Source: Nitrospira sp. (lineage in GTDB: Bacteria; Nitrospirota; Nitrospiria; Nitrospirales; Nitrospiraceae). Taken from it: 50,671 bases of DNA. Shown here in pieces: positions 35,313 to 50,671 of the stretch (its first letter is position 1; every line of letters starts with the position of its first letter). The stretch lies in NCBI GenBank assembly GCA_030444405.1, contig JARFPM010000038.1, positions 1 through 50,671 on the forward strand, read 5' to 3'. The position numbers and the translations under genes are program-made. Below the pieces are notes generated by a model. That model saw nothing but the letters and a program-made list of their open reading frames with translations. It did not search any database and was not told where the DNA came from.

Positions 35313-36722
35313 TTACCGGGTGCGCAGTTGTTCCACTTGCCCCTGGGCCCGAGCCAGATTGACGCGCGAGGCATGCACGCGGAAGAGGGCGTCGATCATG
35401 TTGTCTTTCGCGCGCACGAGTGAAAACAACGCGTTCGACAATTCCAGCGTGTTGGAGCTCAACGTCCGGATGCGTTCCCGTGCAAGGCCCACCTCGGTCA
35501 GCGAGGCTTTGAGGCCGTCTTTCGCGATCCGCTGTTGTTCCAGTGAGGCTCTCAGGGTGACCAGCGCTTCTCTCACTTCCATGCCGACTTGGTTCTTGAC
35601 CAGGACCAGTTTGTAATTTTCCTGGTTGAATTCGCTCACACTCTGCCCGATGCGACCTTCGCGTTGCCCTCCATCGAAAATCGGAATCGACAGCTGGACT
35701 CCGACATTGTAGGTGCCGGTCGTGTTGTCGAGTCTATTGCCGATCAGCCCGTAGTTGCCCTCCGCCGACAGGGACGGAAGCCGCTCACTCTTGATCGATC
35801 GCAAACTCAATTCCGCGGTCCTGATCCGTTGCGTCTGTGCCTTGAGCTCAGGCCGATTGACGCTGGCCGCCTCCAGAGCGCTTTCCAACGATGGAATCAG
35901 CCCGTCGTAACCCTTCATTTCGTCCGTGAGCTGAAGCGTGACGTCATAGCCGATCCCGATTGAATTGAGCAGCGTAAACTTGGCCCGCTCCACCTCTCCC
36001 TTGGCCAGTTCGAGCCGCTGCCGTTCATTCTCCAACTGAGTTTCCAGTCGCGCCGCGTCAAGACCGGTCGCCATACCTCCCGCCAGCCGATTCTTGACAA
36101 ACGCGACCAGATCTTCATACAGAGTGACGTTGGCCGATCGGGCCTCCAGCGTCTCCCGATTGCGCAGTACCTCGAAGTAGGTCAGGGCGACCTTGGCGAC
36201 GGTATCATTCTCGGTGGTCGTGGAGTCCAGTTCCGCCACCTGGAGAGCCGAGCGGGACGCCCGCCACCGTTCGATCAGACTCAGACTGAACAGGGACTGG
36301 GTGAAGGAAGCGCGGCCGTCGAAGAGATCGAACGGATCGGTCCGACGCGGCGGCCCCCCGAGGGAACCTAGGAAGAAAGTTTGGTTGTTGTACTTGCCGG
36401 TGGACGCAATGTTCGGAAGTAACCCGCCCAATTGGGTTCGGGAGGCTGCGCGCGCGGCCTCGATCTTTTCACGAAACAGGCGAATGTTCGGATTCTTGTC
36501 GAGTGCCGCGTCGATGGCCTCCGCCAACGACAGCTTGAGCACCGGCAGATTCTCGGTCGGCAGCGGACGCGTTGGGCTCTCTTGAGCCAGCGCAGCACTG
36601 CTGGCTGACAGAATTCCGGCTAGGACGAAGAGCGCCGCTTGGGTCCAACAACGGGCGACTCGCCCGCACGTTCGGCCCTGCGACACGTCCGCCCCTCGGC
36701 CTGTTCGTAGATTGAGTCTCAT
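35313..36722 (-). CDS. TolC-family outer membrane channel protein
   Basis: The 469-residue protein has a signal peptide (residues about 25-46, ending SSAALAQ) and two TolC-type repeats made of long helices with LSLAEAIDAALDKNPNIRLFREKIEAARA at the first and RPELKAQTQRIRTAELSLRSIKSERLPSLSAEGNYG at the second, plus the beta-barrel strand segments FDGGQREGRI. TolC proteins form the outer-membrane exit duct of tripartite exporters. GGGAGAGAC precedes the ATG. It is the last gene of the secretion run, 14 bp after the HlyD gene, so it probably serves as the exit channel for that system. Confidence 0.9.
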   Translation of the reverse strand: MRLNLRTGRGADVSQGRTCGRVARCWTQAALFVLAGILSASSAALAQESPTRPLPTENLPVLKLSLAEAIDAALDKNPNIRLFREKIEAARAASRTQLGGLLPNIASTGKYNNQTFFLGSLGGPPRRTDPFDLFDGRASFTQSLFSLSLIERWRASRSALQVAELDSTTTENDTVAKVALTYFEVLRNRETLEARSANVTLYEDLVAFVKNRLAGGMATGLDAARLETQLENERQRLELAKGEVERAKFTLLNSIGIGYDVTLQLTDEMKGYDGLIPSLESALEAASVNRPELKAQTQRIRTAELSLRSIKSERLPSLSAEGNYGLIGNRLDNTTGTYNVGVQLSIPIFDGGQREGRIGQSVSEFNQENYKLVLVKNQVGMEVREALVTLRASLEQQRIAKDGLKASLTEVGLARERIRTLSSNTLELSNALFSLVRAKDNMIDALFRVHASRVNLARAQGQVEQLRTR

Positions 36723-36736
36723 GTCTCTCCCATTCT

Positions 36737-37609
36737 CTAATGCGTCGTATGAAACTTCACGGTGCAGGCAAGCCCGGCCGGCAAGGTGTTATTGAGGTTC
36801 GGCATTTCCAGACGGACTCCGAACGTCCCGCTCGCACTGTCTACCACACGATTCACGACGGTCACGTGAGCTTGATAGGTGGTCGAGGCATTGCCTTCCG
36901 GTCGCACATCCGCCTTCATGCCCGGCGTCAGCTTTCCCAGCAGGCTCAACGGAGCGAACACTTCGATCCGCAGGGGGTTGATCTGCGCCAGTTTGAGGAT
37001 CGGCGTCTTTCCAGCCAATTCACCGGGAGACAAGAGCCGATCGACCACGACCCCGCTGAGCGGGCTATAGATCGTGCGGAGATTCAGAGCTGCCGTGACC
37101 CGATGCCACTCCAGTTCGTCGATGTGTTTCTTTTCGGTCGCCTCCAGATGTGCCGTTTCCGCGAGAACCTTTTCTGTTTGAGCTTCATCGAGTTCGTGCT
37201 TGGCGATTGAGTTGGATTGGTAGAGATCCGTCGCCCGCTCGAGCTTCCTCGCGCTGAAGGCCATTTTTGCCTGCGTACTTTTAATCGTCGCCTCCGCCTC
37301 CGCCTTTGCTTTGGCCAGCGCAACTGTGGCCTTTTCCACACTTGCCTCCAACGTGACGATGGCCTGCCCCTTAGACACCCAATCGCCCCGCTCGACATGC
37401 ACCGTCTGGATCATGCCTTCCACCGGCGCCCCGATGGACACTTCCATATAGGGCTTCATGATACAGGCCAGATTGTCGGCAGCTTCAGCAGCGACGTTCC
37501 AACCCAAACAGCCGACGGCACAACACAGCGAAGCCCATACCAGATTACGGCAGCGACGCAGCCCACTCCTGACACGCCGGTCTACCAACTCCGGATCCAT
37601 CCTCAACAT
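36737..37609 (-). CDS. HlyD-family periplasmic adaptor
   Basis: From ATG 37609 the product has 290 residues. A hydrophobic N-terminal stretch (VWASLCCAVGCLGWNVAAEAA) looks like a signal or anchor. The first lipoyl half has SIGAPVEGMIQTVHVERGDWVSKGQAIVTL, followed by an alpha hairpin with strong heptads (EKATVALAKAKAEAEATIKS), then the second lipoyl half TIYSPLSGVVVDRLLSPGE and a beta-barrel. Adaptors of this type bridge an inner-membrane part to TolC. The frame is open to 37813, but that extension overlaps the SecA-like gene. It lies 19 bp after that gene and 14 bp before tolC. Confidence 0.88.
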   Translation of the reverse strand: MLRMDPELVDRRVRSGLRRCRNLVWASLCCAVGCLGWNVAAEAADNLACIMKPYMEVSIGAPVEGMIQTVHVERGDWVSKGQAIVTLEASVEKATVALAKAKAEAEATIKSTQAKMAFSARKLERATDLYQSNSIAKHELDEAQTEKVLAETAHLEATEKKHIDELEWHRVTAALNLRTIYSPLSGVVVDRLLSPGELAGKTPILKLAQINPLRIEVFAPLSLLGKLTPGMKADVRPEGNASTTYQAHVTVVNRVVDSASGTFGVRLEMPNLNNTLPAGLACTVKFHTTH

Positions 37610-37628
37610 CGTGCGGCCACTCCTCCCG

Positions 37629-39540
37629 TCATTCCACTCGTCCTGAAAATGCGAGCGTGGATTCGAGCTGATCTTCATGCTGGAGCAACTCCCGGCGCAC
37701 GCGGGCATGCAGCCGTTCCGCGGACCGCTGGGCCAGCCGCACCAGCAAGCTTGCCAACCATCCCTCCAGCGGCTGGCCTGACTTGAGCAGCAATCGCGCC
37801 ACCCATCGGGCAACGGTTCCGTGAGAGGTGGTCAGCAGCTCGTCCTCGAGCGAGGTCACCGCTTCGTAACTGCCGGGATCTCCCTGTCGGCCCGCCCGCC
37901 CGTAGAGCTGCCGATCGATGCGTTGGGCTTCATGCCGTTCGGTCGCCAGCACATGGAGCCCACCGGCCGGTGCCACGGAGCGGGTCAATTTGATGTCGGT
38001 CCCACGTCCCGCCATATTCGTCGCCACTGTGACCCGCCCCCGCTCGCCGGCTGCAGCCACGACCGTCGCCTCCTCCTGATCCTGTCTGGCATTGAGTACC
38101 ACATGCTCGATCTTTGCCCTCTCCAATTGCTTACTGAGGATTTCGGACGCGGCGACGGAACGGGTCCCGACCAGGACGGGACGACCCTGTCCACGCAGCT
38201 CTCCAATCCGATCCACGACCGCGTCCCACTTCTGGTCCGCCGTGGCAAACAGCCGCTCCCCCCGCCAACGACGCTGGAGCGGGCGATTCGTGGGGATCGT
38301 GACCGTCGCGAGTCGGTAGACGTTCCAGAGCTCGCCGGCGACCTCCTGCGCGGTTCCGGTCATCCCGGAGAGCCAGAGGTACCGCCGGAAAAATCGTTGG
38401 TAGGTCATCCGCGCCAGCGGCGCGTTCATCGGCGTAAGGGGGCAACCCTCCTTCAATTCGATCATCTGATGCAGGCCATGTTCCCACGATCGGTCGCCCA
38501 TGACGCGTCCGGTGTATTCATCGATGATCTGGACCTTCTCATCCCGGACGAGGTACTGCATGTCGCGATGAAACAGGTACAGGGCGGTCAGTGCCTGACG
38601 AACCAGCTCTTCCCTCCGCCTCGGCCCCGACCAAATTCCTTTCAGATCGTGGGCCCGCTTCGTGAGCGTCGCCTGCCCCTGGGGAGTCAGACGGATGCTC
38701 CGTTCCCGCCCGTCGAGCGAGAAGTCCTGTCCACGCTCCAAGCCCCGTGCAAGCCTCAGGGCCGTTTCATAGATCGGCTGTTCCGGGACCTGGCCGCCGG
38801 CGCCTGAAATAATCAGGGGGACCCGCGCTTCATCCACCAGCACACTGTCCGCTTCATCGACGATGCCGAAGCAGAGGCCCCGCAGGACCAACTGCCTCAG
38901 CCTGGTGGCATCGCCGTACAGCCGCTCCAGTTGCAGCTGAATGCGATTCGGGTGCCGCCCCACCACCAACCGATCCCGGAGATAGTCGAACGCCAGTTCT
39001 TTGTTGCAGCAATAGGTCACGTCACAGCTGTAGGCCCCCCGCCTCGCGACAGGATCGAGCTCATGGGTGACGGCGCCGACGCTGAGTCCGAGCATCTCGT
39101 AGAGTGGTCGCTGCCGCCAGCGTAGCGGTGAGTGTCTTGCCTTCTCCGGTCGCCATTTCTGCGATGCAACCGTTCAGCAGCACCCACCCTCCGACAATCT
39201 GGACGTCGTAGTGCCGTTGCGCGAGCGTCCTGTGCGCCACTTCACGGACCAGCGCGAAGGAACGGCACACCAGCTCCTCCGACAGACCGTCGCGGCGCAA
39301 TCGGTCCCGCAGCTGCTTGGCCTGTTGCGTCAGCCGGTCGTCCGACAATCGCTCAAGGGCGAGCCCTTGTTCTGCGACTTGAGTCACAATCGTCGTCTTC
39401 AGACATCGCCGCACACGGAGACGACGAAGCAGCGGACTGGCCAGTCGCGCCCCTTGACGGTCGAACCACCCTTCTTTCGGTACATGGCGTTCAGGGTAGG
39501 CGCTGTGTAGCGCGGTGCGTTCGCGAGCGAGATCAAACAT
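37629..39540 (-). pseudogene. SecA-like ATPase without the C-terminal SecA domains, frameshifted by an internal deletion
   Basis: Two frames together make a SecA motor. The first (ATG 39540) covers the N-terminus to the Walker A loop MATGEGKTLTATLAAA (residues about 129-144); the second resumes at LYEMLGLSVGAVTHELD (about 39107-39095) and continues with TYCCNKELAFDYLRD, VDEADSVLVDEARVPLIISG-type Walker B, NMAGRGTDIKL and YGRAGRQGDPGS. About 27 residues that relatives have between these points (including motif Ia, VVTVNDYLAxRD) are missing, out of frame. Counting both parts the protein would have about 640 residues: it ends soon after the second motor domain and has no scaffold, wing or zinc tail of housekeeping SecA (about 900 residues). 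Such SecA paralogues are suited to a dedicated substrate. It overlaps the M50-HlyD stop by 8 bp. Confidence 0.8.
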
Positions 39541-41680
39541 TGAATCGCGCCAGGAACAACTGGCGTCCCTGCCGATACCATTGGACGGCCAACGCTTCTC
39601 TGCCGTGATCGAACCGCACATACACCCGCCCGCCGACATTAAGGATGCCGTGTTGGACAGGCAACTCAAGATCCATCTGGAACAGTTTCTTGATGGCTTT
39701 TTGCCCCTTGGCATCGTGCGGGTCGAGCGGCACCTGGCCCCCACCCTCGCTGCCCAAGGCCGGGCTGGGCAGTTCTTCGCTGGCGGCCGGAACCAGGCGG
39801 GTGATCGTCGCCGGCATCGGGTCGGCCAGCCGCTCCGCCAACCGGACCTCGACATCCTGGATCTGATGCCGAATCAGGTCGATATCGCTTTGATCGACAA
39901 TGGTGCGGACGATGATCGTCTTGAGATCCACCACATGAGCCAACAGCTCGCCACGCTTCACAAATCGCCCGGGCAGATCCGCCGCCTTCGGTAGCACGAA
40001 CGTCCCCGCTGCCCGACTGCGGATCACCAGCTCCGACTGCCGTTCTCGTGCGCGGGCCAGCCGCTCCTCGATGTACCGTTGCTCCTCTTCCAACATTTTC
40101 GCCTTGACTAAGTCGTCGACCAATTGCTCCCGAATCCGCGCATTGATCTCTTGCAGTTGCCCTTCGAGCACCTTCACGTCCGTCTCGATGGCGGGGTCGC
40201 CACAGACCACCAGTAGATCACCCGGCCGGACGTTCGAACCAGGCGCCGCCACAACCCGTGTGACGAACCCGTCAACTTCGGCTCGGACGAACGCCTCGTC
40301 GGGAATCCAGACCACGCCCTCCGCCCTGGTCCGGAACGGCACCGGCACGAGCGCCAGCACAGCCACGAGTCCAGCCACCACAGCCATGCTCACTGCGACG
40401 GCCCGCCCGCGCACCCGACGAATCCGGCGACTCGTGCACAGATAGTTCACCCCTTTGCCCAACGGCAGCACAAACCAGGTCCCGGCCGTCAGGACGGCAA
40501 ACACCACACCTAGGAGAAAGAGCTGGTCCGTGAGATAGAGCAGAATGGCGGCGACAACCAGTACCCGATACACGAACGAGGTGACGGCATAGGCGACGAA
40601 CCAAGCCCGTTCGCCTGCCGTGGCATGAGGCACCGGCGCATCATCACGCCCGAACAGATAGCGTTCACAGAGGTAGCCAAGATAGGTATTGGCCCGCTGG
40701 CGGAGATTCGGAATTTCCAGAACGTCGGCCAGCATGTAATAGCCGTCAAAGCGCAGGAGCGGATTGGCGTTGAAGATCACAGTCGAGATGCCGGCAATAA
40801 AGATGGTATTGTAGGCCAGGGTTCTCACCGTGCCCGGTTCGACGCTGACCCACACGAACATCGCGATTGACGCGAGCACCAGTTCCACCAGCATGCCCGC
40901 CGCCCCCACGACCACGCGCTGCCATTTACCGGCGAACGCGGAAGAGGCCGAGGCATCCACATAGGGCACAGGCGAGAGGACCAGGAGCATGATGCCCATT
41001 TCGTGGACCTCGCCGCCGAATACCTTGACGGCGAAGGCATGGCCGAATTCATGCAGAGCCTTGATCACGGGAAAGAGCAGCCACAACAGCACAAGATTCT
41101 GCGGCGCCATCACACGGTCGATCAGATTGGCGGTGAGATCGGACCAGTGAGCCGCGCCGACCAGCAGGGCCGGCCCGACGATGAGACACCAGAGGGCCGC
41201 GCCCCACCAGGAAAAGAATGGACGGATGAGCGAGGCGAACTGCTGCAAGAACCGTTCAGGATCGACCAGGGGAAACTGCCAGGCGAACACGTTCATCAGC
41301 CGCCGCTGCCATTTGCGCCGGCGCTGCTTGTCATAGCGGGCCAGCAGCTCGGCGGTGTCCGGGGGAATGTCGCACTGCAATACGTCCGCGGCATGCAGCT
41401 GACTCAGCAACTGGACGACTTCCGGCTGGGTGGGGGCGTTATCCCCGAGCCGGGAGGAGGAGAGGTCCCAGATCTGCTGCACCGACCTCTTCCCGTCCAT
41501 CAAGCCGATGAACGAGAAGGCGGATGGGGAAAACCGGTGGAACCGTTCGTTTGAACGGTCCTGCAACACGTACCAGGTCTGTCCGCGATATTGATGCCGG
41601 TGCAACTTGGCATGGCTGCGAAGGCGCGGAGCGAGCGACGCGACGCGATACCAGGATGGGCTGAAGAGCGCTTCACTCAT
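39533..41680 (-). CDS. PqqD-like/M50 metalloprotease/HlyD fusion membrane protein
   Basis: The 715-residue protein combines three parts. Residues about 25-110 resemble a PqqD/RRE-like winged helix (YRGQTWYVLQDRSNERFHRF and later HAADVL). Residues about 150-450 form a multi-pass membrane region with the site-2-protease motif HEFGHAFAVKVFGGEVHEMG (HExxH near 211-215) and NANPLLRFDGYYMLAD, the second metal-ligand motif. Residues about 465-715 form a HlyD-type lipoyl/hairpin adaptor (RAEVDGFVTRVVAAPGSNV; RSRAAGTFVLPKAADLPGRFV). Fusions of this type occur in peptide and protein export systems. The start ATG 41680 follows AAGG. It is intact, unlike its neighbours on both sides, and likely forms the inner-membrane platform of the system. 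Confidence 0.88.
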   Translation of the reverse strand: MSEALFSPSWYRVASLAPRLRSHAKLHRHQYRGQTWYVLQDRSNERFHRFSPSAFSFIGLMDGKRSVQQIWDLSSSRLGDNAPTQPEVVQLLSQLHAADVLQCDIPPDTAELLARYDKQRRRKWQRRLMNVFAWQFPLVDPERFLQQFASLIRPFFSWWGAALWCLIVGPALLVGAAHWSDLTANLIDRVMAPQNLVLLWLLFPVIKALHEFGHAFAVKVFGGEVHEMGIMLLVLSPVPYVDASASSAFAGKWQRVVVGAAGMLVELVLASIAMFVWVSVEPGTVRTLAYNTIFIAGISTVIFNANPLLRFDGYYMLADVLEIPNLRQRANTYLGYLCERYLFGRDDAPVPHATAGERAWFVAYAVTSFVYRVLVVAAILLYLTDQLFLLGVVFAVLTAGTWFVLPLGKGVNYLCTSRRIRRVRGRAVAVSMAVVAGLVAVLALVPVPFRTRAEGVVWIPDEAFVRAEVDGFVTRVVAAPGSNVRPGDLLVVCGDPAIETDVKVLEGQLQEINARIREQLVDDLVKAKMLEEEQRYIEERLARARERQSELVIRSRAAGTFVLPKAADLPGRFVKRGELLAHVVDLKTIIVRTIVDQSDIDLIRHQIQDVEVRLAERLADPMPATITRLVPAASEELPSPALGSEGGGQVPLDPHDAKGQKAIKKLFQMDLELPVQHGILNVGGRVYVRFDHGREALAVQWYRQGRQLFLARFNV

Positions 41681-41836
41681 CAATAAAAACCTTGAATGCT
41701 CGTACGCAAGGCATCCTTCGTGACGCGCAGGCGAGACAAGCGAGATGTGCGTGACAGGCGCGACCCGCGAAGATGCAGCTTCCGCCTCGTCCCACCCTTC
41801 TCGCGCATCTCGCGAGTCCCGCGCGAATCAGACCTA

Positions 41837-43506
41837 TCACGGCAGCCATGTCCAGACGGTCAATCGGATCCAATCCACGACTTGATGCGTCCAGATCCAG
41901 ACCAGCAGGCGCTGATCGATCTCAATCTTGCCCGCGCCTTCCATCGCCGGACGAAGCCTGTCGTGGGGCTGATCCAGTGTGGCTTCCACGCGGAAGAAGT
42001 TGCGTCCCTCCTTCGCCGTGGACACGGGCGTGACTTTCGTGACCGTGACCCCAACCGGGTCGGAAGGAAAGGCCGAGAGCAAGAGCTGGCCGTGCTGCCC
42101 CACCTGCACGTCGGCGATGTCGCGCTCGTCAACTTCCAGCACCACGCGGTAGCTGTCGAGCGGGGCGATCTCGAACAACACCTTGCCTTTTTCCACCGGA
42201 GCCCCCAGCGACTGGGTCCAATCTCCGCTGACGACGATCCCATCGAAGGGCGCGATCACGCGGGTATGGGCCAGCTGATCATCGAGCAGCGCGATCTCCG
42301 ACTCGGCCTGGTGCATCTGCGCAGTCAGAATCTCGACCTTCGCCGCCTCCCGCTCGGTCAAGGCTTTGTGATACTCTTTCCGATATTCTTCGAGCTTGCT
42401 CAGCGACTTCACCCGTTCAAGTCTCAACTCGCGATCGTCGAGCGTACCAAGCACGTCGCCGGACTGCACCAGGTCGCCGGCGCGAATGGGCGCCTCCCGG
42501 ATATAGCCGTTGAATGGCGCCGCGGCCGCTCGTTGAACGACCGGCTCCAAGACTGTCTTCGCCGACACTCGATAGTCGCCCTTGGCCAGGAAGCAGAAGA
42601 CCAGCAGGGCTGCGAGCGACGCCGTGGTTAATTTCAGAACGACATGGCTGGGCCCAAGCAGGTCGCCGACAGACCGCGTGACCGAATCCCAGATCTTGGC
42701 CCCCAGCCACCGATCGTCGCGTCGATGGATCTCCAACACGGGCCCTCGATGGCTTCATCCATAGCCTCGGCCAAGCCGCGCATGACGTTGGTCTGTGCTT
42801 TGAATTCGGCACTGTGCGACACGGCAGCCACCCGTGCCCGTCCTCGCTTCACGAACCCAATGCTGACACGGTCGCACGAGAGGCTCGCCGCCAGCGTATT
42901 CACCAGCGCCATCGCCGAGGCATAAAACCGTTCGTGGCCGACGGACGTCGCCACCAGATCCAGCGCGGTCTGTACCCGCTCACGCGTCTCTTTTTCAGCC
43001 GCCGCCGCATCGCGCGCAAACAGCAGCTCCAGCCATGCGGCCCCCCAATGCAACTGCCGCATGATCACTTGCATATGGACATCCGACAGGGCCGGCACTT
43101 CGATCACGGCTGCCCCACAAAGCGCGCCACGCAGGTCAATGGGATAGCCGACGGCACAGTGACTCTGCTCCAATTCACCGTCCACCGCTTGCCGGCGAAC
43201 CACCACACCACGCCGCTCGGCAAACGCGCGCTCGGCAGCCTTCGTCAAATGAGTCAACGCCTGGGAACCCTCCGGCCAACTTGCTATGGGACGAAACGGG
43301 CCTCGTCCCGGAGGACCAAGGAGCACGAGCCCCGATCGCACCCCTTCGACCATGCGACATTGCAGGGCCAGCCATCCCTGGCAAAAGGCAGCCGTTGTCG
43401 TGGCTCCGGCGAACGCAACCCATGGCCCGGCGTCCTGCAGTACAGGTTCCTGAGCCGCAGCCTGTTCGCCTTGCGGAGGACCATGCTTCAGATGGGCTTG
43501 ATGCAT
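41837..43506 (-). pseudogene. GAF-HlyD fusion adaptor, frameshifted by an internal deletion
   Basis: The N-terminal frame (ATG 43506) encodes a GAF-type sensor region (two GAF-like halves; the second has LAASLSCDRVSIGFVKRGRARVAAVSHSAEF and GLAEAMDEAIE). It breaks near 42740-42747. The other frame, starting around GTG 42739, begins LEIHRRDDRWLGAKIWDS, which is the end of the GAF region, and then gives one membrane helix (LKLTTASLAALLVFCFLA) and a HlyD adaptor with lipoyl halves APFNGYIREAPIRAGDLV and APFDGIVVSGDW. In relatives the two parts form one protein, with roughly 70-80 more residues of GAF fold at the break. So an out-of-frame deletion lies here. The M50-HlyD gene follows 156 bp downstream. 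I infer a fused sensor-adaptor for the same exporter. Confidence 0.75.
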
Positions 43507-43929
43507 CTGCAACTCTCGATCAGCTCACTTGGTGCCGATTGGGACACAATGAGCACCATCCCTCGGCAGCGGATCATACATCGCACTGGACCGCAGTATC
43601 ACCCATCCCGTCCTACACTGTCGAGCAAAAGCATTGATTTAGGAGGGGAGCTGACGACAGCAGGAAGGGGCAGAGCCAGTTCGCACGGTTGAGGGAAAGA
43701 AGATCAAAGACGGAATCGAGAATGTATAAGTCGAATGGAAACGGCACAACCACGGAAGGGCTGTCCCGAACGGATCAAGATCTACGGAGCAACTGTGAAG
43801 AACAGCCTCACACAACAGACAACCGATATAACCTCTGAGGTCCTAACAACGCAAGTGCAGATGTTCCGACCTCTCGCAAGATGCACCAGGCAGGGAGTCG
43901 ATTCACGACTCCCTGCCATACGGTGTGAA
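43507..43929. other. Non-coding stretch between the RTX gene and the secretion run
   Basis: Apart from the strong hairpin near the RTX stop (listed separately) there is no gene. On the minus strand TCGACA (43624-43619) and GATACT (43600-43595) are 18 bases apart and could be a weak promoter for the GAF-HlyD gene, about 90 bases upstream of its start. The rest, about 43625-43885, shows nothing recognisable. Confidence 0.35.
43889..43917 (-). terminator. Strong hairpin after the RTX gene
   Basis: GGCAGGGAGTCG and CGACTCCCTGCC form a perfect 12-bp stem around the 5-base loop ATTCA, 12 bases after the stop of the RTX protein gene. It is the most stable hairpin I found outside the large palindromes. 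The bases after it on the minus strand have no T-run, so it may act in mRNA stability or Rho-type termination rather than as a standard intrinsic terminator. Confidence 0.55.
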
Positions 43930-44797
43930 TCAGATATTCGTGATCTTATCGCCGTCCTTAGTTGCCGAATTGATATCCGTAATCTTGTCGCCCGATCCGA
44001 TGATGAACCAGTCGTGTCCTGAACTTCCGGTCAGTTGGTCGGCGTCCTCGTCCACTACGTCACCATCGTTATTGTTGTCCCCCAGATCCCCATCTGCAAT
44101 CCAGTTAGCAGCCCAGTTATCGCTGATCGTTCGGAGAGAGTCATAGTTATGACCCTGCAGATCTCCAGCAACCAGGATGTCATGGCCGGCCGAACCGACT
44201 AGCCGATCTGATCCGTCACCGCCGATGAGAACATCGTTTCCTGCGGCTCCGGTGAGGGTATCATTTCCTTGATCGCCCCAGAGCACATCGTGCCCAGCGC
44301 CGCCGGAGATCGCATCGTTCCCGTCACCGCCATGGGATTCGAGATTGACGTTCCCGGTCAGGCTGATGTTGTCATCGCACGCCATCCCGTACACGATCAC
44401 GTGCCCACCGGCTCCCACGGAGTAGGAACCAGTGCCGTTAACGGTGACTGCACTCGGGTTGGTGGCATTCACCGCGATGGTGTCGCAACCATTGGTACCG
44501 ACGATGAGGACATTAGCCCCGTCCTGAACTGTGGTAATGACGCTCGGCGTCAAAACGGTCAGCGTCCCAGGGTTGATGGTCACATTATAGTTGGATACCA
44601 ATCCGCTCCCGTTGCTCACGGAACCATTGATCGCATAAGGTCCCACCAAGGCTGCCACCGGGACACCGGCGCTGGTGTACGTAATGGCAAGATTCTCGCC
44701 ATTGACGCCGGTGTTGACGGTCGTGCCTAAGGCAACGGCGAGATCAATGGTCTGACCGAATACCTTTGAGGCATTGGCGATTGCGATGGTCGCAACC

Positions 44798-44945
44798 GCC
44801 TTATTGATCGTGAGCGTGGCCGTGCCGCTGGCATCGTTGTAGTTCTGCAGCCCGGAGATCGACGCCGTGGTCGTGCCGGAATCGGCTACGTTGGTGCCGG
44901 TCTTCGAGTTGCTGGCCAGCGTTCCATCACTGCCCACACCCGGCC
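44798..44945. repeat. Direct repeat, copy A, inside the RTX gene
   Basis: This 148-bp segment reads the same as 45240-45387 (442 bp apart). It encodes GTLASNSKTGTNVADSGT and the following TASISGLQNYNDASGTATLTINKA part of an MBG-like domain. Past a 26-base insert absent from the other copy, the identity continues for about 36 bp. Identity at the DNA level suggests a recent duplication or gene conversion. Confidence 0.85.
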
Positions 44946-45239
44946 GTGTGCGCCCCACCATCATAGATGCCCGTGTAATCGACCACGTTCACCGTCGCCG
45001 TGGCCTTGGCAATCGCGTTATTGACTGTCCCAGACGTGTTGTTGTAATTGCCCGTGCCAGTGAAGATCCAGGCGTCACCGGTGTAGGTACCCGCATTGGT
45101 GTGCGTCGTGCCGCTCAGGTCCACCGAGCCAACCGTCGAGCCGTTCTCCCCGTTCACGCCCGTGATCGAGGTCACGCTCGCTGTGTGCGATGACCCGTCG
45201 TAGATCACGCTGTAGGCCGCGACCACGACCGTGGCGTTG

Positions 45240-45387
45240 GCCTTATTGATCGTGAGCGTGGCCGTGCCGCTGGCATCGTTGTAGTTCTGCAGCCCGGAGA
45301 TCGACGCCGTGGTCGTGCCGGAATCGGCTACGTTGGTGCCGGTCTTCGAGTTGCTGGCCAGCGTTCCATCACTGCCCACACCCGGCC
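45240..45387. repeat. Direct repeat, copy B, inside the RTX gene
   Basis: This is the second copy of the 148-bp segment at 44798-44945. The identity ends at CCCGGCC; here the following 26 bases of copy A (44946-44971) are missing, and the shared GTGTAATCG then resumes. The loss is not a multiple of three, and it is bounded by short GCC repeats, as expected for slippage or a mis-joined assembly. Confidence 0.85.
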
Positions 45388-47217
45388 CGTGTAATCGACC
45401 ACGTTCACCGTCGCCGTGGCCTTGCTCACCGTCACATTTGTACTGTAGTCGGTAAAACCGCCGTTCTGGTCGATGATTCTTCCCCAGAAGGTATAATTGC
45501 CGGCATTGAGGTTAGTGAAGTCCTGCGAGGCAGTCTCACTGCTTCCACTGGCATACGTAACACCGGTTAGTCCCGCAGCAGTGGTAGCGAAGGCATAGTG
45601 GAAGCCAGCCGATGTGTCACTGTTTGAGGGATCAGATGCACCGGTAAAGCTGATGGTAACTGTCTCGCCATACGTCTTTGACCCATTGTTCTGCAATGTG
45701 GCCGTCGGTGCGACGTTAAGGACGCTGACGCTCAGAGCATTCGCCCGATTCAGGAACGTGCCGTCCCCATCGATAAGGTCCACCGTCACGTTATAGGCAT
45801 TGGGTCCGTCGGCGTAGGTGTGCGTCTTAACGCCGTTGCTGCCGTAGGTATTGCTGGTGCCGTCGCCCCAGTGCACCAAGTAGCTGCTGACTGTGTCCGT
45901 CCCTGGATCGCTCACCGCGCCCAATGTCAGGCTATACACCGCACCTTCGTTGACGGTGGGGGCCCCACTGATCGCGATGGTCGGTGCGACGTTGTTGACC
46001 GTGAGACTAAATGTGGTACTCGACGAGGTAGTCCCGTCATTCGCCGTGATAGTCACCGTTGTCGGGCCTGCCGGGCCATCAGTTGGCGTGTACGACCATG
46101 ACCATGTACCGCTTGCATTGGTACCTGATTTGGTCACGGTCCCGACCGATGCACTCAATGTGACGGTATCGCCTAAGTTCGCATCCGACCAAGTTCCAGT
46201 ATTGATTGCCGTTGTGCCTTCATTAACCGTAACCGCAGCATTATCTCGATTGATGACCGGCGCGGTGTTGACCGCCGGAACTGTGACTGCGATGGTCAAA
46301 CCAGATCCTGGCCCAATAGGCGCAACTGATGGACTAGCAACTGCCTTCACGGAATATGTGTTCGCTGCAACGCCTGAACCGACATAGATAGTGAACGTAT
46401 AGGTGATTGTCCGATCTGTTGCTGTAGCGCCCGAACCAGTATAGACTGTACCGATAGTACCCGCATCACTATCGCTTGTTGCAGTGTAGATAACACCAAT
46501 CTCACCGGCACCAGGAGTAGAACTGTTGACCACCGTAATACTTGGTGACCCAGTTGACGCAAAGGTAAACGTCGGCGTCTGCGTTCCATTGTTTCCTGGT
46601 ACCGTCAAAACCACATTGGTGACAGAAGTAGAGCTTCCAGCAGCAATCGTGGCTGTCGTTGTACCGCTATAAGAAAAGGCCCCCGCATCCGTAAACTCAT
46701 GCGTTGCCACGGTGCCAGATGCAAGACCGGTCGCTGTCACAAGAAGTGATGAACTCGCATACTGATCCTCGACGAACCACGTGGTGCTGATGCTGCCGTT
46801 CACCGTGCCATCGTTGTCGGCCCGAACCCAGTCGAGCTGGCCATCGCCGTTCACGTCAGTTTGATACGCGTCAACTCCACCGTCGATCACATACCAGGGC
46901 AGATTGCCGCTTGGAAAATCCGGAACCTCGTCGGTGCGGGTCACCTGGAACTGAACCATTTCTCCTTCTGCAAACGTGGCGCCATCAACCGTGCTGGGCG
47001 TGTTGGTCGCCGTGATGACCGCCGTCTCCCCCGGAGAATAGTCCGCCTTGTCGGTGATGACGACGGCTTCCATCGGGGTCGCTGACAGCAAAATCCGATT
47101 TTCAAGAGACTCCAGAATAAACACGTCACGAGATGGCTGAGACTGTGTCGCGAGTTGCCGGGTTGCCTTGCGGCCGTTGTGCCCGTTACGTTTCAGCCGA
47201 TTAAGCCATTTCGCCAT

Positions 47218-47697
47218 GATTCCGTCTCCCTTTGTTAATGACCCTTCCTTACACTTGCCGATTACCGTTCCGAAACTCGACACATTCGAATCCACCTATC
47301 GTCAGCGCGCATGGTGCATGAACATTCACGCGAACGCCCCACTGGTCCCACTCTCCGGCGATGCCTGGTCTACACACCGCCATTCGTACAGCGAGAATAC
47401 GCGCAATGACTGTCCGGAGAAATTATGCGAAAGGGGTGAGGAAGAAATGCCGCGGGCTACTGCTATTCGTTGTGGTTGGATTTTTTCGAGTTGTCCTGCC
47501 TACGCTGAAATTGGGCATTCGAATGCTTCTGACTTTGCAGGGAAGCCAAAGGCACCAGGGTTTCAGGAGATTCCGCTCGTTATTCGCAGCGGACTAACGA
47601 ACGATAGCACCCGATTCCGACACAACAGCCGTCCTGATCTCCGTCAGGAGCAGAGGTGTTCTCAAAAATCGGGGGCGTGGACGTCGGAAGAGCGGTC
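47218..47697. other. Non-coding stretch upstream of the LEPR-XLL/RTX gene
   Basis: The minus strand, which should hold the leader and promoter of the RTX gene, shows no credible gene. A 273-codon plus-strand frame crosses it but has no ribosome site, unusual composition and no known domain, so I do not call it. I did not find a convincing promoter pair. Confidence 0.4.
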
Positions 47698-48325: not shown

Positions 48326-50671
48326 CTAGCCCGCAGAATTCATGTCAGTCAGCACCTCTTGGACGGTCAGCGCGCGGTTGTAAATGCGCAACTCATCGAG
48401 CGAGCCCCGAAAGAACTGTTGGATATTGTTATCGGCGCCAACCTGGAAACCATTGTTACGACCGGTAATCGTCGCCGTAAGTGAGACGGTCGTCACAAGC
48501 ACACCGTTAACATAGTACCGTACCTGCGACCCATCAAAAACGACTGCAAGATAGCTCCATTGGTCTAGTGCGAGCGCGGAGCCCATTGATGCTGATAGTG
48601 GCCCGCCAGCTGTACCAATAAATAAGTTCGGCACCGTGCCCCCTGTGAGTTCCAGCCCATATTGATAGTATGGACTGGTCATCGTTGGGTTCCAGAATTT
48701 ACCCAAGACAACGGAATCACCTCCGGAGATCGTCTGCGGCTTAATCCACATACTGAGCGTCAAGCCGCTTCCAACGAAATTCAACGATGACGAATTCGGC
48801 ACAGTGATGTAGTCATTCACTCCATCGAACGTGAGACCTCCCCCATAGTTCCCCGTGGTTCTTGCAATCCCGTTAACAAGGGTGGCCGTGTTCCCGTTGC
48901 CGGACATGTCCAGGGCGCTGGTTCCAGAGGTCTCATTGAAATTCCATCCTGCCACGAGCCCGGAAGGTAATGGATTGGCCACGACTGTGTAGTTCGCGGT
49001 ATAGCTTTGGGCCGCTGTCGGCACGGTAATCGTATGCTGTTGCGCCCCGCCGTCCGACCAGGAGGCAAAGGTATAGGAGTTCGCCCCCACTGTCTGATTG
49101 CGCGCCTCTATTGTGTGATTAAAACCGATTAGGGTGTCATAGACGAACGGCGCGGTATGTGCGATTCCATCCAGGTAGATGGTGAGGCCGCCGGGTGCCG
49201 TATCGAACGTGAGATTGACCTTATCCGGGTAGACAATGGAAGTCCGAGTCGTCTGCAAGCCAGAGGAATCAGCGACCGTGAGTGTGATGCGATAGCGCGT
49301 GTCGCCACTGAAGTCATGCCCGGACGTTGGGATCGTAAACGTGCCACTGCTGACACCGGTGAGGAGAGCACCAGGGTGAACGTGTCCACCATGGAGGAAA
49401 TCGATCATCCAGGTGAAGGCGCTGTCCGGAAGCACACCATCTTCAACATCCGACGCTGTTGCGCTGAAGGAAATCACATCGCCAGCTCTGAACAATTCAT
49501 TATTCGCTGGGGTCGTGGTGAAGGTCGTGATGACCGGTTTGTTGCCTACGCTGATCGCAATCGGCGGCGAGATCGTTGAGTTGACCCCATCGGAAACCGT
49601 CAGACGCGCCTGATAGATCCCGGCATTTGCATAGGTGTGCTGCGGATTGGCCAGGGTGGAGGTCTGACCATCGCCAAAGGTCCAGGAGTAGGTCAGCGGC
49701 TGGCCTTCGGGATCTGAGGAACCCGCACTCGAGAAGGTGACCGTCAGCTGCGGCACACCCTCAGTCGGAGTGGCCGACGCCTGGACCACGGGCGGCAGGT
49801 TAGATTGAATGTACTCGATCCGACGGAGTTTGCTGATACCAAACGTGCCGCCGACATCCGAATACCCAAGGTCGAGGTAGTACAGCGCCCCTTCGGGTCC
49901 CTCCGTGAGATAGACGATGTCGCCGTAGGGTCCGTCGACCGAGCCGTCGGCGGGCTCGAAGTTGAACACGCCGGTGACATTGCCATTGGCATCCAACGTC
50001 AGACGCTTGATCCAATTCTGCGTGTAGTCGGCGAAGAAGTAACTGCCCTGATAACTGCTGGGGAACTGGGTCCCGTGATAGACGAACCCGCTGGTGATTG
50101 AGGCATCCCGCCCGTTATGGGGATAGGAATAGATCGGATTGGTATAGGCGGGATTGGTGGAGTTTCCCTCAACGTTGGGCCAACCATAATTGGCCCCCCG
50201 CGCGCCGAGATTCAGTTCTTCCCTCGCCGTCGACCAGTCGTTGCCGCCGACGTCGCCGATGAATAACCGACCAGTCGGCGCGTCGTAGTAGGCGCGGTAC
50301 GGATTGCGCAGTCCCAGCGCCCAGATCGCGTCGTAATGGGGTCCGGTGCCATCATAGAACGGGTTGTCTGTCGGGACTGTGCCGTCGGGATTGAAGCGCA
50401 AAATCTTGCCACGCGGGCTGGTCAGGTCCTGGGCCGGCGTGCCTTGGAAATGGTCACCAGTGGTGACATAGATCTTGCCGTCGTTGCCGAAATTAATCGC
50501 CCCGCCGTGGTGCTCCGTGTCTGCGATTTGGGGATCCTCATAGAGGATGACCTCGCTGCCGGCAATGGTTCCGTCGAGGTTGCTGTTGGCGGTGAATCGG
50601 GACAGGCGGTCTTTATTCGGGGAATCATTCGTATAGAACACGTAGTAGTAATGATTGGTGACGAAGTTCGG
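48326..50671 (-). CDS. PQQ-type sugar dehydrogenase/PKD/LamG protein, 5' end outside the window
   Basis: The frame is open through the right edge of the window, with 10 more codons (PNFVTNHYYY) upstream of the first possible start at 50641, so the N-terminus lies outside. The visible part of about 781 residues has a GSDH-type beta-propeller (HHGGAINFGNDGKIYVTTGD, RGKILRFNPDGT, IWALGLRNPYRAYYD, REELNLGARGANYGWP), a PKD domain (VTFSSAGSSDPEGQPLTYSW), further beta-sandwich domains, and a C-terminal LamG/concanavalin-like domain (DGVNDYITVPNSSSLNF to the end). Such proteins are exported and act on or bind polysaccharides. The C-terminus has no sorting motif I know. It is on the same strand as the secretion cluster and may be another cargo. 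Confidence 0.82.
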   Translation of the reverse strand, partial: PNFVTNHYYYVFYTNDSPNKDRLSRFTANSNLDGTIAGSEVILYEDPQIADTEHHGGAINFGNDGKIYVTTGDHFQGTPAQDLTSPRGKILRFNPDGTVPTDNPFYDGTGPHYDAIWALGLRNPYRAYYDAPTGRLFIGDVGGNDWSTAREELNLGARGANYGWPNVEGNSTNPAYTNPIYSYPHNGRDASITSGFVYHGTQFPSSYQGSYFFADYTQNWIKRLTLDANGNVTGVFNFEPADGSVDGPYGDIVYLTEGPEGALYYLDLGYSDVGGTFGISKLRRIEYIQSNLPPVVQASATPTEGVPQLTVTFSSAGSSDPEGQPLTYSWTFGDGQTSTLANPQHTYANAGIYQARLTVSDGVNSTISPPIAISVGNKPVITTFTTTPANNELFRAGDVISFSATASDVEDGVLPDSAFTWMIDFLHGGHVHPGALLTGVSSGTFTIPTSGHDFSGDTRYRITLTVADSSGLQTTRTSIVYPDKVNLTFDTAPGGLTIYLDGIAHTAPFVYDTLIGFNHTIEARNQTVGANSYTFASWSDGGAQQHTITVPTAAQSYTANYTVVANPLPSGLVAGWNFNETSGTSALDMSGNGNTATLVNGIARTTGNYGGGLTFDGVNDYITVPNSSSLNFVGSGLTLSMWIKPQTISGGDSVVLGKFWNPTMTSPYYQYGLELTGGTVPNLFIGTAGGPLSASMGSALALDQWSYLAVVFDGSQVRYYVNGVLVTTVSLTATITGRNNGFQVGADNNIQQFFRGSLDELRIYNRALTVQEVLTDMNSAG

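Follow-up and report, generated by a model that had tools for sequence, protein, structure and literature searches.

The stretch of DNA analyzed here (the window) comprises positions 1 to 50,671 of the forward strand of contig JARFPM010000038.1, from assembly GCA_030444405.1 of a Nitrospira sp. Between positions 35313 and 47217 it carries a row of minus-strand genes that we interpret, with a probability of about 0.66, as a dedicated exporter of LEPR-XLL proteins, mostly very large surface proteins of the RTX, Ig, and cadherin types. In the order of transcription, the row encodes a LEPR-XLL/RTX protein (43930 to 47217), a protein with GAF and HlyD parts (GAF-HlyD; 41837 to about 43512), a fusion of an M50 metalloprotease with an HlyD-type adaptor (M50-HlyD; 39533 to 41683), a SecA paralog with SecA_DEAD, PP_bind, and P-loop domains (37629 to 39540), an HlyD-type periplasmic adaptor (36737 to approximately 37612, its start having been estimated by eye), and a TolC-family outer membrane duct (35313 to 36722). 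The duct matches Pfam OEP at 2.1e-48, and a homolog 78% identical to it closes the cassette in the related locus L039; the HlyD protein matches HlyD_3 at 1.1e-16 and RND_mfp over its cutoff. The HlyD part of GAF-HlyD was recognized by profile match and the GAF part through the L039 homolog. Two HlyD genes lie between the SecA and TolC genes in L039 and L060, and one (36737 to 37612) in the window. The LEPR-XLL motif itself (VFILESLENRILLSATP), which we propose as an address tag, lies at 47065 to 47121 on the minus strand and matches NF012209 at 25.7 bits in one search and 21.2 bits in another (cutoff, 17); RTX repeats occupy the far end of the same protein (43930 to 44964).

An initial annotation, made from the sequence alone, had described five exporter genes on one strand and a large LEPR-XLL/RTX protein directly upstream. 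The common strand, the NF012209 match, and the RTX repeats bear out this description; the SecA and GAF-HlyD genes are frame-broken here, and the LEPR-XLL/RTX gene is split over three frames (45328 to 47295, 44927 to 45379, and 43930 to 44964) and contains a 211-bp repeat of 88% identity. The M50-HlyD gene is intact. The two frames of the SecA paralog cover residues 1 to 147 and 170 to 663 of an intact relative, with about 80 bp absent near 39104 to 39118, and a search of the same genome found no second copy of this paralog. GAF-HlyD is 220 bp shorter than its L060 counterpart at 42745, exactly where an 88-bp identity (42658 to 42745) to the start of another contig of the same genome, C68, ends. 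The GAF-HlyD frame in C68 is unbroken as far as that contig extends. We read the segment shared with the start of C68 as a probable junction in the assembly graph, joining two operon heads that resemble each other. C68 carries an alternative LEPR gene and the head of a GAF-HlyD gene, with approximately 79 to 83% DNA identity to the window over the larger pieces. In relatives of the same genus, both the SecA paralog (663 residues) and GAF-HlyD (635 residues) are unbroken.

To place this row in a wider setting, we compared the best 80 of 467 matches to a 13-row M50-HlyD alignment, a set that leans toward the form closest to that of the window (type A; see below). By record title, these loci belong to Nitrospirota, alpha-, beta-, gamma-, and deltaproteobacteria, Rokubacteria, Omnitrophota, and others, and Thioclava, Bradyrhizobium, and Luteibacter are among them. 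The order GAF-HlyD, M50-HlyD, short SecA, HlyD is conserved and recurs across phyla. GAF-HlyD was called in 78 of the 80 loci, the contig starting just before M50-HlyD in the other two, and a SecA-like open reading frame (ORF) was present in 75. Among the five loci without one, L071 and L084 are cut off by the end of their contigs, whereas for L076 and L077 the paralog is encoded at another place in the genome; a search of the genome of L127 found none. The initial annotation had named repeated linkage across phyla, with no type I ABC ATPase nearby, as support for its reading, and this is what the loci display; a linkage of the SecA-like and M50-HlyD genes by chance in one genome is refuted by the recurring gene order. 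A regular-expression search for Walker A plus signature motifs found no ABC-like ORF in the window, as the annotation had stated. The same search found such ORFs in 3 of the 80 loci: L072 has a 598-residue MsbA-related exporter about 1.5 kb past HlyD, L086 has CcmA, and L121 has an ATPase of the importer type. No ORF of the three scored over the cutoff of a type I model, and on this search a type I ABC motor encoded in the locus was rejected.

LEPR-XLL proteins travel with this cassette, as shown by genome-wide co-occurrence and frequent adjacency. Across phyla, 43 of 49 cassette genomes have a protein over the NF012209 cutoff; if the largest LEPR frame of each is taken, the median length is 8,470 amino acids, and 38 of the 43 exceed 3,000. 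In 28 of the 49, a LEPR gene is the same-strand neighbor of the cassette (27 by script and L073 by eye). Coordinates alone would have given 30 of 49, but the adjacency in L074 and L134 was rejected as a coincidence of coordinates. Within the phylum of the window, we divided 295 genomes into those with a type A M50-HlyD (56 to 87% identical to that of the window; 17 genomes), those with only a type B M50-HlyD (approximately 24 to 31% identical; 34 genomes), and 244 others, which include 19 genomes with weaker M50-HlyD matches (E above 1e-30). A LEPR frame of at least 500 residues was found in 14 of the 17 type A genomes, 20 of the 34 type B-only genomes, and 3 of the 244 others, the last count rising to 8 when frames of fewer than 500 residues were included.

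A second comparison covered 198 genomes from the family of Thioclava pacifica (L089): 17 of the 18 genomes with type A had strong LEPR matches (at least 26 bits), versus 2 of 180 others (Fisher test, 2e-21, shared ancestry being ignored). Weak matches in G562, G580, and G658 (20 to 21 bits) were dropped before this count, G599, G612, and G651 (29 to 30% identity) were counted as type A because a SecA paralog adjoins their M50-HlyD, and G708 is a partial match. The two positive genomes outside type A are G619, which has type B, and G659, which has a 743-residue LEPR frame and no M50-HlyD; among the type B-only genomes of this family, one of eight has a LEPR protein. By estimate, 16 of the 23 LEPR frames in the family share the strand of M50-HlyD and end 0.9 to 2.8 kb ahead of it, a distance of about the length of GAF-HlyD, and the remaining frames lie further off, on the opposite strand, or on another contig. 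The longest LEPR frame, of 17,824 residues, is in G599. Four genomes (G309, G310, G319, and G681) have two type A copies and two LEPR genes. In a class-level sample of 190 genomes around a Bradyrhizobium, which was scored for LEPR only, matches at E values of 0.01 or below occurred in four genomes, namely, the cassette-bearing central genome and three with weak matches and frames of 390 to 610 residues (G393, G399, and G525). For a computed result, the link between the cassette and this substrate is strong.

The window may hold more than one such protein. At 48326 to 50671, also on the minus strand, is a GSDH/PKD/laminin-G protein that lacks its N terminus, since its frame runs off the end of the contig. 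Because a LEPR protein of L118 has GSDH, PKD, and laminin-G among its domains, this protein may be a second LEPR cargo.

Comparison of types A and B indicates which cassette component the LEPR tag follows. A SecA paralog is present in all 17 type A genomes of the phylum (split in the genome of the window), and a comparable second SecA was found in none of the 34 type B-only genomes (79 genomes tested). The type B locus L054 has the order OEP, HlyD, HlyD (weak GAF), M50-HlyD, and a giant gene, and L056 to L058 look similar. The giants of L054, L056, and L057 start with LEPRIMFD- or LEQRLMFD-type motifs, and that of L056 has DUF4347. Of the 20 type B-only genomes that have a LEPR match, 19 have it within 2 kb of M50-HlyD. 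The form without a SecA paralog thus also adjoins LEPR-type giants, and for this reason the SecA paralog was rejected as the partner that defines LEPR; the tag is associated with M50-HlyD and is not defined by the SecA paralog. Both forms occur in the genome of the window, on contigs C8 and C114. On C114 (L054), the type B locus has no SecA paralog nearby and adjoins a 2,812-residue protein with tandem-95 repeats and LEPRIMFDGA near its N terminus; its LEPR match scored 18.2 bits in one search and was unlisted in a later hmmscan.

The predicted structure of M50-HlyD (mean predicted local distance difference test score [pLDDT], 86) begins with three strands followed by three helices at the N terminus, continues with a helical region in the membrane, and ends in an adaptor of the MexA/MacA type at residues 447 to 703 (best structural match, Z of 15.3 over 220 residues at 4.1 Å). 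Both motifs of site-2-type (M50) metalloproteases are present, HExxH at residues 211 to 215 and NxxPxxxxDG at 305 to 314, and H211, E212, H215, N305, P308, and D313 are invariant in 48 sequences. The N terminus (residues ~25 to 101) resembles PqqD: Pfam PqqD matched 43 of the 48 sequences at E values of 1 or below (best, 4e-7), and the predicted strand-strand-strand-helix-helix-helix arrangement spans residues 25 to 98. Residues 9 to 105 also gave structural matches (Z of about 11) with parts of GdmN and Rv2067c. PqqD-like domains bind leader peptides in pathways for ribosomally synthesized and posttranslationally modified peptides (RiPPs); in M50-HlyD, we take this domain as the leading candidate for a reader of the LEPR tag.

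The SecA paralog is found beside a housekeeping SecA in the genome of the window. The intact 663-residue version from L060 was modeled with a pLDDT of 88 and matches SecA structures; it superimposes on substrate-engaged SecA (6itc) over 594 residues at 2.6 Å and ends at approximately residue 612 of Bacillus subtilis SecA, a stop that we take to leave out the wing and the two-helix finger. SecA_SW did not match the SecA pieces of the window or the intact L039 protein, in line with the initial description of a SecA-like protein without the housekeeping C-terminal domains. Among 56 relatives, SecA_SW reached an E value of 1 or below in 4 (best, 0.037), which agrees with a lost wing, and the residues of the Walker A and DEAD motifs vary little or not at all. 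Shorter, divergent SecA-like ORFs of 488 to 573 residues occupy the SecA slot in L110 (12348 to 13883), L119 (11802 to 13268), and L136 (12854 to 14575). For the ORFs of L119 and L136, SecA models match at best over about the first half only, and a full-length paralog is encoded elsewhere in each genome; the L110 ORF had no match to NCBIfam at E values of 0.1 or below, and no full-length paralog was found elsewhere in that genome.

In 26 of 30 fetched LEPR loci the leader was readable by script and has the consensus [FL]-E-x-L-E-P-R-x-L-L-S-A-D, preceded by 18 to 101 residues that carry a net positive charge in 23 of the 26; because the LEPR model and a regular expression served to choose the loci, the conservation is partly a product of selection, and start codons were set by rule. 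By hydropathy alone, none of the 26 leaders reached 2.0 over 12 residues, compared with 13 of 14 TolC and 55 of 69 HlyD N termini from the 80 loci, and the LEPR leaders appear on this measure to lack the hydrophobic core of a Sec-type signal. At the other end, the 28 giants encoded upstream of the cassette share scattered G, D, and A columns but no clear consensus, although C-terminal signals of type I secretion are in any case poorly conserved. The view that the LEPR motif, rather than the RTX end, is the address gains support by association from the link with the cassette, the conserved N-terminal motif, and the lack of a common C-terminal signal; it needs amending in that the tag follows M50-HlyD even where SecA is missing. 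Within the C-terminal 90 residues of 28 large upstream ORFs (L067 to L133), W followed by G, D, E, N, S, or Q occurs in 21, compared with 5 and 9 of 28 in control windows, the pattern having been chosen after looking. Several ORFs end in IDWGG-like or RxxRWD-like forms, and such a W-containing tail could be a second signal or an anchor.

From the linkage described above, we infer the following route. The substrate would be made with a mostly basic, nonhydrophobic N-terminal leader ending in [FL]ExLEPRxLLSAD, which the PqqD-like domain of M50-HlyD would dock. The short SecA paralog would then spend ATP to thread the unfolded chain, and the way out would be formed jointly by M50-HlyD, through its membrane part and its adaptor arm, by HlyD and GAF-HlyD, and by a TolC. 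The intact zinc site of M50-HlyD may clip the leader. A broader proposal is evenly balanced in our judgment: that this is a separate, widespread Gram-negative export class, in which a PqqD-type reader, joined in one protein with an intramembrane protease and an adaptor arm, reads the LEPR tag, a SecA without the finger carries chains as long as about 18,000 residues straight from the cytoplasm to the surface, and the SecA-less type B serves as a sister form for LEPR-like giants.

Several observations weigh against the dedicated exporter. The window's SecA and GAF-HlyD genes are broken as assembled. The PqqD match of the window's own M50-HlyD is weak (E value of 0.016, below the cutoff). By model, 6 of the 49 cassette genomes have no LEPR protein, although 2 of them (G305 and G335) have the motif by regular expression, and the LEPR scores of type B giants are mostly near the cutoff (approximately 16 to 25 bits). 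LEPR proteins also occur without type A, in G197, G223, G234, and five genomes with short frames within the phylum of the window, in G619 and G659, and weakly in G562, G580, G658, G393, G399, and G525. The short SecA ends before the wing and two-helix finger of canonical SecA, and no intact SecA paralog was found in the type B genomes or in those of L127 and L110. The shortness of this SecA, and the type B systems that stand beside LEPR-type giants with no SecA paralog in the genomes tested, would fit an export in two steps, in which canonical SecA/SecYEG or some other route carries the protein across the inner membrane, M50-HlyD, HlyD, and TolC export it from the periplasm, and the short SecA assists or regulates. 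We nevertheless consider such a route unlikely, given leaders of which none reaches the hydropathy attained by nearly all TolC N termini and a type A cassette that is nearly always accompanied by the SecA paralog.

It is more doubtful still that LEPR proteins leave by an ordinary type I ABC exporter whose gene lies outside the locus, with the cassette processing, tethering, or regulating them afterward. Many of the giants on the LEPR side bear RTX repeats, and of 70 genomes with both LEPR and the cassette, 21 encode an LssB-type ABC exporter that scored over the cutoff, a result that also counts against a dedicated exporter. The other 49 had no match over the cutoff and 28 had no LssB-type match at 1e-120, in a survey that scored 13 candidates per genome and did not test PrtD and HlyB types. 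LssB-type exporters thus are not linked to the cassette and seem not constant in its hosts, although some hosts have them, and neither a shared C-terminal signal in the 28 giants nor, by regular expression, a type I ABC gene in the 80 loci was found. Least probable is that the SecA paralog is decayed or moonlighting and the window holds a pseudo-operon. The SecA and GAF-HlyD frames of the window are indeed broken as assembled, with no other copy of the paralog found in the genome, and the 488- to 573-residue ORFs in the SecA slots of L110, L119, and L136 could be read the same way; the conserved ATPase motifs of the 56 relatives and the coincidence of the GAF-HlyD break with an assembly overlap speak against it. 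We retain the dedicated exporter as the preferred reading. With it, an orphan exporter locus known since 2015 gains a likely cargo, and the LEPR-XLL giants gain a likely route. If it is true, a SecA-family motor replaces the ABC motor, a leader-reading domain of peptide natural products reads a protein tag, and the passage of single chains of about 1 megadalton or more across two membranes becomes testable in culturable hosts such as Thioclava, Bradyrhizobium, or Luteibacter.

The initial annotation knew of no established secretion type with this composition, but the same locus, and the idea of SecA as its ATPase, had been printed in 2015. Kamneva, Poudel, and Ward (PMC4452313) describe secondary SecA_DEAD proteins without wing-scaffold in five phyla, with M50/HlyD, HlyD, GAF/HlyD, and sometimes OEP genes as neighbors; they note that an ABC transporter is missing and propose SecA as the ATPase and M50 as the pore or membrane part. 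A SecA_DEAD protein without SecA_SW, M50-HlyD, HlyD, GAF-HlyD, and no ABC gene are all found in the window, and its locus is a member of this published secondary-SecA locus. The main text of that paper names no substrate or tag (0 occurrences of "LEPR" and of "RTX"), and its available passages mention neither a PqqD-like domain nor a SecA-less form. They place the locus in Planctomycetes as well, a group not included in our genome samples. What is new here is the link of LEPR-XLL proteins, mostly giant, to the 2015 locus, the PqqD-like domain predicted on M50-HlyD, the apparent absence of a Sec-type hydrophobic core from LEPR leaders, and the SecA-less sister form beside LEPR-type giants. In the open-licence PubMed Central records seen, the phrase "secondary SecA_DEAD domain" occurs in the 2015 paper and one citing it, LEPR-XLL receives passing mention (for example, a giant protein of about 8,000 residues in Vibrio), combined searches yield nothing further, and other LEPR spellings yield matches unrelated by title. 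The NCBIfam entry NF012209, LEPR-XLL (LEPR-8K), names the tag and its proteins, and the listing names no exporter.

Other known systems share parts of this design. Residues 19 to 405 of M50-HlyD match the model of the daptide protease (NF041824) at 7.2e-53, but with 180 bits against a cutoff of 300. Unlike the RiPP proteases of this family and of LiaK/YydH (NF058609), M50-HlyD is fused to an adaptor arm, and its substrate would be a large protein rather than a peptide. The accessory SecA2 of Gram-positive bacteria is a second SecA that in some cases serves special surface proteins, and it resembles the present paralog in standing beside a housekeeping SecA. Here, however, the motor is shorter, with no wing/scaffold match, its partners are HlyD and TolC, its hosts are Gram negative, and the LEPR leaders, by hydropathy, lack the core of a Sec-type signal peptide expected of SecA2 substrates. 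Type I secretion (HlyB/HlyD/TolC), including LapBCE, a type I system for giant RTX adhesins, has in common with the cassette the HlyD-type adaptors, TolC, and RTX-bearing substrates. It differs in its motor, since the loci examined encode no type I ABC ATPase and a SecA-type motor would act instead, and in its signal, which is C-terminal, whereas LEPR proteins share an N-terminal motif. Our hypothesis is that the system is an N-terminally addressed, SecA-associated relative of the tripartite exporters.

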